A stretch of DNA of 64,000 nucleotides from Methyloprofundus sp. (lineage in GTDB: Bacteria; Pseudomonadota; Gammaproteobacteria; Methylococcales; Methylomonadaceae): positions 855 through 64,854 of the forward strand of contig DUBW01000037.1 of assembly GCA_012960135.1 (NCBI GenBank), written 5' to 3'. The position numbers and the translations under genes are program-made. Below, in pieces: positions 51,558 through 54,166 of this stretch (positions within the stretch are counted from its first letter, which is position 1; every line of letters starts with the position of its first letter). The notes below the pieces were generated by a model that was not told where the DNA came from, ran no database searches, and was given only the letters and a program-made list of their open reading frames with translations.

Positions 51558-52025
51558 TCAAAAGGACAAGTTTTCCAACTCATCCAGACCCTCATCATCA
51601 TCGCCTTCAAGCCAATCATTCTCTTTAGCATTCCAGGCGTCTTCATTCCATATTTCAAATTTATTTAACTGCCCCACTAAAATCAACTTCTTTTCCATGC
51701 CGGCAAATTTTCTCAATTTTTCAGATAGCAATAGGCGACCCTGCGCATCCATTTCAGTTTCTGTAGCATTACCAATCAGGAAGCGGCGTAATTTGCCAGC
51801 CATTTTGTTTAAAGTAGGCAGTTTGCTAACGGTTAATTCCAGCTTTTCCCATTCAGGCAGCGGATAAAGCCATAAACAACCCGGCTCACCTATGCATTTC
51901 TCATTCACAGCGACGGTCACAACTAGCTGACGCTCGCAACAATCCTGTAATTCCTCTCGAAACCGAGTAGGAATTGCAAACCGTCCTTTTGCGTCTAAAT
52001 TGATTGCTGTTACACCACGAAACAT
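51558..52025 (-). CDS. mraZ: Transcriptional regulator MraZ
   Basis: MraZ is the DNA-binding repressor that controls the dcw cluster it heads. The 155-residue protein has the two SpoVT/AbrB-like half-domains: AINLDAKGRFAIPTRFRE near residues 6-24 and ATETEMDAQGRLLLSEKLR near residues 87-105, each with the DxxGR signature. The C-terminal tail is acidic. Four 10-bp operator repeats and a strong promoter lie immediately upstream (52061-52134), so self-regulation is expected. Confidence 0.98.
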   Translation of the reverse strand: MFRGVTAINLDAKGRFAIPTRFREELQDCCERQLVVTVAVNEKCIGEPGCLWLYPLPEWEKLELTVSKLPTLNKMAGKLRRFLIGNATETEMDAQGRLLLSEKLRKFAGMEKKLILVGQLNKFEIWNEDAWNAKENDWLEGDDDEGLDELENLSF

Positions 52026-52140: not shown

Positions 52141-52358
52141 TTTAGAATAATTTCCCTTTTTTGACAATGACTTAGATAACCCCCTCCATAATAAACACAA
52201 AAAAAAATTAACAAAACAAAACCACAATAAATTTCAACTATTTGTTTTTTTTTCTTAATGTAAATTCTAGGTAGGTAGAAAATAACCAGCCGCTAATATT
52301 GATTGCACTACCTACCTCTTTATTACCCATACACGACAAAATTTCAGGCAATAAAAAA
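52141..52358. other. Intergenic region between the dcw promoter and the EGKCG peptide gene
   Basis: No gene is supported here. The DNA is very AT-rich, with long A and T runs around 52200-52260. A 10-bp inverted repeat, aggtaggtag (52269-52278) and ctacctacct (52308-52317), stands out; whether it is an operator or a hairpin is unknown. Confidence 0.5.
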
Positions 52359-52385
52359 CCCACAAAGCAACAAATGCTTTGTGGG
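52359..52385 (-). terminator. Intrinsic terminator after the EGKCG peptide gene
   Basis: A perfect 11-bp stem (cccacaaagca with tgctttgtggg) has a 5-base loop and is followed on the minus strand by a run of six T. It lies about 50 bp after the stop codon of the 52433-52792 gene. Confidence 0.85.
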
Positions 52386-52432
52386 CCTTAAAAATAGCGA
52401 CTTCCGGGCTAAACCCGGGCTAAATTTATTTT

Positions 52433-52792
52433 TTATTTAATATTCTCACCACATTTTCCTTCGCCGCATTTACCTTCCATATCCATTTTTTTTGCTTTAG
52501 ACGTAGGTTTATTTCCCGCACATTTTCCTTCAACTGTTTTTTCCATAGCACCTTCAGGCATCATGTTTGCGCCACACTGGCCGGCACCACATGTACCATC
52601 TTTCATTTTCGAATTTCCTTTTTTTTCTTTATCTGCCTCTGCTACAAACATATAACCGCTAGATAATTCATTGATTTCAAAGGGGTTACCGCCGCTACTT
52701 TCAATACTTTCTGCTTGCACACTTGTGGCCGTTAAACCAGAAACCAAAGTCGTACCTACTGCAATTACCAAAGGTGTTTTTTTTATACTCAT
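52433..52792 (-). CDS. HvfA-like secreted peptide with EGKCG motifs (possible metal-binding RiPP precursor)
   Basis: This 119-residue protein has a signal peptide (1-27, ending SVQA), the conserved segment NPFEINELSSGYMFVAEADK, then a low-complexity Lys/Gly/Met tail with five cysteines in repeated boxes: DGTCG (65-69), AGQCG (71-75), EGKCA (88-92) and two EGKCG boxes (106-115). EGKCG peptides of the HvfA type are known to be modified by DUF692 (MNIO) enzymes at cysteine and to bind copper. No hvfB (DUF692) or hvfC gene is adjacent, so the modification machinery, if any, must be encoded elsewhere. The ribosome-binding site is GAGGAAAG. It lies 24 bp after mgtE and ends at a strong terminator. 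Similarity is judged by motif only. Confidence 0.75.
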   Translation of the reverse strand: MSIKKTPLVIAVGTTLVSGLTATSVQAESIESSGGNPFEINELSSGYMFVAEADKEKKGNSKMKDGTCGAGQCGANMMPEGAMEKTVEGKCAGNKPTSKAKKMDMEGKCGEGKCGENIK

Positions 52793-52816
52793 TGATCTTT
52801 CCTCAAAATTAATTAA

Positions 52817-54166
52817 TTACGCCAATAGAAAAATTGTCGCTAAACCTAAAAATGACATAAAGCCTATCACATCTGTGACAGTTGTCAGCAAAACGCCTCC
52901 CGCCAACGCTGGGTCGATACCTCTTTTTTGTAAAAACAAGGGGATCAAAACCCCTGCCAAAGCGGCACAACTCAAATTTATAATCATCGCACCGCCGAGC
53001 ATTATACCTAATGGCATATTAGAGAACCAAGCGGCTGCAATCATGGCGACAACGATTGACCAGACAACACCATTAACCGCACCTATTGCTAACTCTTTAA
53101 ATAGAAAAGACATGGCATTTGAAGAGCTGATCTGGTGCAATGCCAAGCCGCGTATCACCAGAGTCAAAGTCTGACTACCCGCAATCCCACCCATACTTGC
53201 AACTATCGGCATCAGCACTGCCAGAGCAACAATTTGATCGATGGTTGCTGTAAATAAGCCAATGACCCAGGAGGCTAGAAAGGCCGTAAATAAGTTCACT
53301 CCCAACCAGACTGCTCTACGCTTAGCACTGACCAGCACTGGGGCAAATAAATCATGTTCTTCGTCCAGACCAGCAGAAGTGAGCATGGCATGATCAGCCT
53401 CTTCTCGAACAATTTCGAGCACATCTTCAATAGTAATTCGACCAACCACCACCTCCTGCTCATCAACTACTGAAGCAGATAGTATATTTCTGTGCTCAAA
53501 AATAGTTGCAACCTCCGCAATAGGCATATTGATTGGAATTGCTTCAATATGCGTCATCAACGTTGAAACAGTTGCATTGGGATCACCGGTTAAAATTGTT
53601 GGCACTGATATCTTGCCTAGATAACGATTATTGCGAGCAACAACAACCAAGCTATCCAGATTTGCAGGCATATCTTTATGCTCCCGTAAATAGGTCAGTG
53701 TGTCATCTATCGTCAAATCGCCTCGTATCGGCACAAAATACGGATTCATTAACCGGCCAGCCGTATTCCCTTCATAAGATAAAGCCGCTTCAAGGCGACT
53801 ATTTCCTTCCTTGTTAAGTATTTTTCTTCTAACTTCTGCAGAAAAATCAGCAACCAGGTTCGCCATATCTCTAGGTTCTAATTGGCTTGCAGCGGCTACC
53901 AAGTCCTTTGCTGATGTCCGCTCAATCAAACCAACCCGAACTTCACCATGCAATGCCGCGAGCGTTTCTCCCATTGCTTCAGGCGCCATAATGCTCCAAA
54001 GCTTATACCTGTAATCAATCGGTAAAGATCTGAGCAATAAGGCTATTTCAGTAGGATACAAGCTATGTAAATGACTGCGTGCATCATAAAGCGCACCACT
54101 ATCCAGATCAGCAATAATTTGCTGTAAATTTAAATCCAAGTGATCTTGTGGTCTAGTTGATAGCAT
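52817..54166 (-). CDS. mgtE: Magnesium transporter MgtE
   Basis: MgtE is a Mg2+ channel gated by cytoplasmic magnesium. The 449-residue protein has the N domain (about 5-130), two CBS domains (about 135-255; GRLMNPYFVPIRGDLTIDDTL and VVGRITIEDVLEIVREEADHAML) and five membrane helices (about 285-449), with the pore-lining GGIAGSQTLTLVIRGLAL segment near residue 320. In pseudomonads mgtE follows rapZ and ptsO; here it follows rapZ directly. Confidence 0.96.
   Translation of the reverse strand: MLSTRPQDHLDLNLQQIIADLDSGALYDARSHLHSLYPTEIALLLRSLPIDYRYKLWSIMAPEAMGETLAALHGEVRVGLIERTSAKDLVAAASQLEPRDMANLVADFSAEVRRKILNKEGNSRLEAALSYEGNTAGRLMNPYFVPIRGDLTIDDTLTYLREHKDMPANLDSLVVVARNNRYLGKISVPTILTGDPNATVSTLMTHIEAIPINMPIAEVATIFEHRNILSASVVDEQEVVVGRITIEDVLEIVREEADHAMLTSAGLDEEHDLFAPVLVSAKRRAVWLGVNLFTAFLASWVIGLFTATIDQIVALAVLMPIVASMGGIAGSQTLTLVIRGLALHQISSSNAMSFLFKELAIGAVNGVVWSIVVAMIAAAWFSNMPLGIMLGGAMIINLSCAALAGVLIPLFLQKRGIDPALAGGVLLTTVTDVIGFMSFLGLATIFLLA

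Follow-up and report, generated by a model that had tools for sequence, protein, structure and literature searches.

The small protein encoded by P0001 in a Methyloprofundus sp. genome is, on its profile and leader matches, a precursor of the broader EGKCG/oxazolin (HvfA-like) family and not an HvfA equivalog, and we consider it probable that one HvfB-HvfC pair encoded elsewhere in the genome modifies it and other dispersed precursors in trans, giving copper-binding EGKCG products. This reading draws on gene content, gene positions, a shared leader, selection and gene order across a sample of the family, from which we infer the enzyme-substrate pairing, the thiooxazole chemistry, the copper binding and the localisation. 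What is new is that precursor and enzyme genes are split in complementary fashion throughout a genus, accompanied by a remnant and a leader match; stand-alone precursors and the idea of trans modification are already in print, and the genus is an unusually clear case.

Results

The P0001 locus

P0001 lies on the minus strand of the window, by which we mean the whole 64,000-nucleotide stretch of DNA analysed, as an open reading frame running from 52792 to 52433. A sequence-only reading had described a secreted-type peptide of 119 residues with five cysteines in EGKCG-type boxes, its own ribosome-binding site, a strong terminator and a 24-bp gap to mgtE, leaving the strand unstated, and each of these features was borne out. 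The cysteine boxes read DGTCGAGQCG, EGKCAGNK and EGKCGEGKCG, with the general form (D/E/A)G(T/Q/K)C(G/A) and the literal EGKCG in the last two boxes only. Judged by eye, the N-terminus resembles a signal peptide, with MSIKK, a hydrophobic stretch and VQA followed by E. The ATG is preceded by GAGGAAAG, and the sequence 3' of the gene (fold of 52340-52435) forms a hairpin of -36.2 kcal/mol (z -5.0), which was not listed by a simple promoter/terminator scan of the window that returned nothing above chance. In the order of minus-strand transcription the open reading frame list gives rapZ, mgtE, P0001 and the terminator, followed by mraZ and the rest of the dcw cluster; mgtE alone was checked against Pfam, and rapZ, mraZ and dcw are what we take the other genes to be from their order and sequence. 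The features of the locus are as follows.

52433..52792, minus strand: EGKCG-type precursor gene P0001, five cysteines (NF050137 27.0 bits, cut-off 19.5; orthologues in the genus)
52712..52792, minus strand: signal-peptide-like segment, residues 1-27, also the proposed leader (by eye; Cys-free leader profile, E 4.6e-17)
52649..52687, minus strand: conserved NPFEINELSSGYM motif, residues 36-48 of P0001 (residue invariance in alignments)
52445..52609, minus strand: cysteine-box core, residues 62-116, with C68, C73, C91, C109 and C114 (orthologue conservation)
52797..52804, minus strand: ribosome-binding site GAGGAAAG (sequence)
52356..52388, minus strand: terminator hairpin and T-run (fold, -36.2 kcal/mol, z -5.0)
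52817..54166, minus strand: mgtE, upstream neighbour of P0001 (Pfam MgtE, MgtE_N and CBS)
51558..52025, minus strand: mraZ, start of the dcw cluster, past the terminator (open reading frame list; presumed name)

Family assignment

P0001 scored above the cut-off of NF050137, the EGKCG repeat domain of HvfA-type metallophores (27.0 bits, cut-off 19.5), and below that of NF050188, the narrow HvfA equivalog model (26.9 bits, cut-off 95). The latter cut-off was also missed by four hvfB-linked relatives (32.0, 26.2, 43.1 and 54.4 bits) and by the two other precursors of the same genome (20.1 and 19.3 bits), and we therefore file P0001 in the broader family. Both models were matched at E 0.01 or better by all 22 precursors of a mixed set. 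The expectation that P0001 would prove HvfA-like in a profile search is therefore upheld at the EGKCG/oxazolin level and fails at that of the strict equivalog. A Pfam search of P0001 gave no match, DUF2282 included. A position upstream of hvfB, which is usual in the family and not required, is absent for P0001; stand-alone precursors have been described, so hvfB linkage is not obligatory (PMC12452194, extract).

Modifying enzymes in the genome of the window

No DUF692 or DUF2063 gene adjoins P0001, and the description of a peptide without its modifying enzymes is accurate for this locus. It does not extend to the genome. A genome-wide profile search of G000, the genome of the window (2.5 Mb, 92 contigs, 90% complete), revealed one DUF692 gene (G000:C45:25111-25893) with a DUF2063 gene next to it, and the reading that there are no modifying enzymes was rejected. 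Matches to these two families over the cut-offs are confined to contig C45, with a sub-threshold DUF2063 match on C89 (E 0.3). The pair passes the equivalog models for HvfB (438 bits, cut-off 360) and HvfC (291 bits, cut-off 142), and the HvfB aligns with the solved DUF692 protein 3BWW (E 5.3e-72). No precursor was found in the 10 kb fetched around the pair, including the interval between hvfB and its divergent upstream neighbour, presumably a DAHP-synthase-like gene, so that the enzymes are orphaned as much as P0001 is. The sequence-only reading had offered two alternatives, modification by a locus elsewhere or function as an unmodified peptide, and the evidence favours the first, since the C45 pair is itself without an adjacent precursor. 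The possibility that the true hvfBC substrate is a DUF2282 bufferin was rejected, none being found in the 12 genus genomes searched (of 18). The genome also carries a strong match to PF02461 (PmoA/AmoA family) and, at G000:C59:60772-61464, another mgtE-like stretch, which is interrupted by two in-frame stops and is probably a decayed gene.

Three dispersed precursors with a shared leader

A search of the genome to E 10 with the EGKCG domain model, answering the suggestion to look for other EGKCG peptides, returned seven stretches, all within three genes: P0001 and two further precursor genes, none of them beside hvfBC. The second precursor (L012:4936-5517; G000:C45, minus strand), of 193 amino acids with nine cysteines, lies at 67 kb on C45, about 41 kb from hvfB, after what we take to be sucCD. 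As first-ATG open reading frames, its genus relatives are up to 278 amino acids long, and several of them end in long tails rich in Met (GMGDMKGM repeats), reminiscent of copper-binding Met motifs. The third precursor (L013:4885-5172; G000:C11, plus strand) has 95 amino acids, and its signal-like segment ends in a cysteine (TSGC, by eye), suggestive of a lipoprotein. A TSGC-type cysteine is also shared, again judged by eye, by similar genes in G002, G003, G005, G009, G011 and G015.

Versions of the NPFEINELSSGYM motif are present in all three precursors, and their leaders agree. Within the motif of P0001, residues P37, F38, E42, G46, Y47 and M48 are invariant in 18 relatives, and F38, L43 and G46 are invariant across 22 diverse precursors. 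We built a leader profile from the Cys-free leaders of 15 hvfB-linked precursors of 15 other genera (17 had been cut, and two mis-cut ones were dropped). Searched against the genome to E 10, it found the three precursors at E 1.7e-21, 4.6e-17 (P0001) and 3.2e-4 (the third precursor), with a sole other match at E 1.08. Because a profile devoid of cysteine picks the same three genes, the leader and the cysteine boxes separately indicate the same enzyme class. A scan of the genome contigs with P0001 as a single-sequence query found no relative.

hvfBC loci in the genus and in the rest of the family

In a sample of 18 genomes from 18 other genera (G018-G036 minus G023, which has no hvfB), a precursor frame lies 45-602 bp upstream of the G000-like hvfB, on the same strand, in all but G030. 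At this exceptional locus (L117) there is no precursor 5' of hvfB and the sole DUF2063 gene is on another contig, perhaps because the split has also arisen outside this genus, or because the assembly is fragmented. Among the 17 genus genomes with the main hvfB, in contrast, 15 have no linked precursor in the fetched loci (at least 1,470 bp upstream of hvfB), one (G016) has a broken remnant and one (G004) an intact gene; the eighteenth genus genome, G014, gave no DUF692 or DUF2063 match. The remnant in G016 (L102:2587-2878), just 5' of hvfB, has an intact leader and boxes that are out of frame or lost; it may be a fossil gene, or the draft assembly may contain a sequencing error. These linkage counts rest on the fetched loci of G000-G036, and the family-wide matches given below were not inspected singly.

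As G000 is a draft (90% complete, 92 contigs), a linked precursor or a second MNIO might lie in its missing part and the split be an artefact of assembly. We regard this as extremely unlikely: the hvfBC locus is contiguous and has no precursor, and the unlinked state recurs in 15 of the 17 genus genomes, including G009, which is assembled in 2 contigs (about 100% complete) and has one DUF692 gene and four precursor places, none adjacent to it. Since G009 shows the split in 2 contigs, assembly gaps were rejected as its cause. For G009 the family-wide scan counted six profile matches, a number of matches and not of genes. The picture of one enzyme pair is not uniform, since in G002 and G010 there is also a divergent hvfB accompanied by a precursor, and G003 and G009 have a second DUF2063 gene elsewhere (a weaker one in G009). 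At the second hvfB-hvfC loci (L076 in G002, L093 in G010), hvfB has 59-60% identity to that of G000, and the accompanying precursor is a different one with many EGKCGDK and GGCN boxes.

In the hvfB tree the main genes of the genus fall into a single clade within the family (100/97, with the bootstrap not fully settled), and their dN/dS is 0.029-0.057 in the eight closest pairs, the linked genome G004 being absent from six of these. This strong constraint and the single nested clade argue that hvfB was inherited, not newly acquired, so that the genus kept the enzymes and lost their linkage to a precursor. Within that clade G004, G016 and G017 make up a nested group (100/99), and because G004 sits within the genus its linked gene was possibly re-linked or re-acquired instead of retained.

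The family-wide set was an even draw from a larger group and comprised 151 genomes, each at least 90% complete. Among the matches listed, the A2 precursor profile was matched in all 151 genomes and DUF692 in 147. The four with a precursor match and no detected DUF692, among those matches, are G014, G023, G074 and G137, for which gaps or true loss are possible, and a fifth case, G166, has a DUF692 match that is only sub-threshold. G023 is 98% complete, and its related peptide keeps the cysteine boxes; at this locus (L127:2342-2911) the peptide is followed by a same-strand open reading frame that by eye resembles an ECF sigma factor.

Conservation of P0001 and its position after mgtE

The mgtE orthologue is held by 16 of the 18 genus genomes, and the peptide follows it at a distance of 17-70 bp in every one of them; the absence of the peptide from G006 and G008 was set aside, since neither holds that mgtE orthologue. 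An AGGA-type site precedes the start in 15 of the 16 orthologues (by eye; G013 is doubtful). C68, C73, C91 and C114 are conserved in 16/16 and C109 in 14/16. All 78 cysteines of the 16 orthologues have G or A as the next residue, as do 141 of 149 in 17 hvfB-linked precursors, against a baseline of 5/49 in neighbouring and marker proteins. This rule fits the small-residue preference of FonBC, which tolerates G or A after Cys and modified a two-repeat substrate and not a one-repeat one (PMC12668002, extract). Orthologues of P0001 gave a dN/dS of 0.07-0.35 in the eight closest pairs, looser than hvfB; dN/dS is quoted for closest pairs only, as most pairs are near silent-site saturation (median pS 0.77, hvfB). 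The median pN/pS is 0.31 for the peptide versus 0.12 for hvfB.

These data bear on the possibility that P0001 is an unmodified thiol metal-binding peptide and that the substrates of hvfBC are limited to one or both of the remaining precursors, which we consider rather unlikely. An unmodified role is an option named in the discussion of PMC12452194 (extract), and it agrees with the weaker constraint on the peptide than on hvfB and with the 4/151 genomes that, among the matches listed, have a precursor match and no detected DUF692. Free thiol ligands, however, have no obvious need for G or A after all 78 cysteines, and the leader match of P0001 (E 4.6e-17) is far better than that of the third precursor (E 3.2e-4). 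We count the DUF692-less genomes with a precursor match, the faster evolution of the peptide and the loss of C109 in 2/16 orthologues against modification in trans, which is still the reading that we prefer.

A function of P0001 within the mgtE region, for example in magnesium homeostasis, with a resemblance to HvfA that is compositional only, would agree with the 24-bp gap and with the linkage in 16/16 genus genomes. We judge it very unlikely, given the profile and leader matches to HvfA-type precursors and the closest relatives from five other genera (G019, G023, G025, G028 and G033), which have no mgtE in the fetched flanks (about 1.5 kb or more) and whose mgtE orthologue is on a different contig or at a distance of 347 kb. 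On the strength of these relatives the mgtE linkage, not seen in the five other genera, was rejected as a functional clue; it appears to be a chromosomal address, perhaps with shared transcription, and the stand-alone type of peptide is probably older than that address.

Discussion

We propose that P0001 is the precursor of an EGKCG/oxazolin (HvfA-like, thiooxazole) modified peptide. In the cytoplasm, HvfB-HvfC from G000:C45 would bind the signal peptide of P0001 together with its NPF..ELSSGYM leader and oxidise the cysteines of CG and CA to thiooxazoles, after which the modified peptide would be released to Sec, exported and cleaved, and would bind periplasmic copper. These enzymes would likewise serve the two further dispersed precursors. 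In the genus, the linked precursor would have been lost or displaced and hvfBC kept, leaving a split pathway that works in trans. In a studied system, HvfA without its signal sequence is a poor substrate of HvfBC, and the signal peptide was proposed to be the leader (PMC13419390, extract); modified products bind copper (PMC12668002 and PMC13419390, extracts). Products of this type are reported to absorb light near 305 nm (PMC12668002 and PMC12452194, extracts), and modification of two repeats is reported to lower the mass by 8 Da (PMC12668002, extract), from which we calculate a loss of about 4 Da for each cysteine.

P0001 resembles HvfA of Haemophilus influenzae, FonA of Fontimonas thermophila and MmrA of Microbulbifer in its putative Sec-type leader, its EGKCG-type boxes, its match to NF050137 and the presence of HvfB and HvfC equivalogs in its genome. 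It differs from all three in being unlinked to hvfBC, in having EGKCA as box 3 and in being one of three dispersed precursors instead of a single one in an operon, and from strict HvfA in its score (26.9 bits against a cut-off of 95). The bufferins Buf1 (DUF2282) likewise use a Sec signal peptide as leader, an MNIO with a DUF2063 protein, thiooxazoles and copper, features that P0001 would share; unlike Buf1, it has no DUF2282 domain (Pfam), and none was found in 12 genus genomes. With methanobactin (MbnA/B/C) the proposed system would have copper, the methanotroph setting and a DUF692 enzyme in common, whereas the HvfB of G000 reaches 62 bits on the MbnB model, for which the cut-off is 325, and MbnA, unlike HvfA-type precursors, has no signal peptide (PMC12452194, extract).

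The closest parallel to the arrangement in G000 is with stand-alone bufferin and oxazolin precursors, which also have no linked MNIO and can occur as several precursors with one MNIO (PMC12452194, extract). The same extract describes precursors that stand alone, as many as four EGKCG precursors in one fully assembled genome, and EGKCG precursors with no MNIO in 67/2583 genomes, and it puts forward the untested proposal that one MNIO-partner (MNIO-PME) pair may serve several related precursors. It contains no case of hvfBC lacking its own precursor genus-wide while sister genera keep the operon. Trans action of one MNIO/DUF2063 pair was left open by this 2025 survey (PMC12452194, extract), and the genus offers a clean natural test of it, with enzymes that are mostly without a linked substrate, several unlinked candidates and sister genera that keep the operon. 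For annotation, a genome-wide search is needed before orphan EGKCG peptides are called enzyme-less.

The matches to the precursor profile and to DUF692 place the peptide chemistry across the sample of the whole methanotroph family. The methane enzyme of this family depends on copper. It is possible, though we would not presume it, that the lone HvfBC is a one-enzyme, many-substrate system whose precursors place copper sites at different positions in the envelope, possibly feeding or protecting methane monooxygenase. Such a system might comprise three architectures, a short soluble precursor (after mgtE), a long Met-rich one (after sucCD) and a lipoprotein-like one, a division that we put forward with the same reserve.

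In the literature searched, mostly other than subscription journals, we found no paper on EGKCG peptides in methanotrophic symbionts. Methanotrophic gill symbionts of Bathymodiolus mussels are among the best matches to the orthologue profile (L134, L135 and L137). The L134-L141 loci probably overlap in part with the genome set analysed above (for example, L136 and G014), and mgtE lies just 5' of the match in the four best of them (L134-L137) and in L141.
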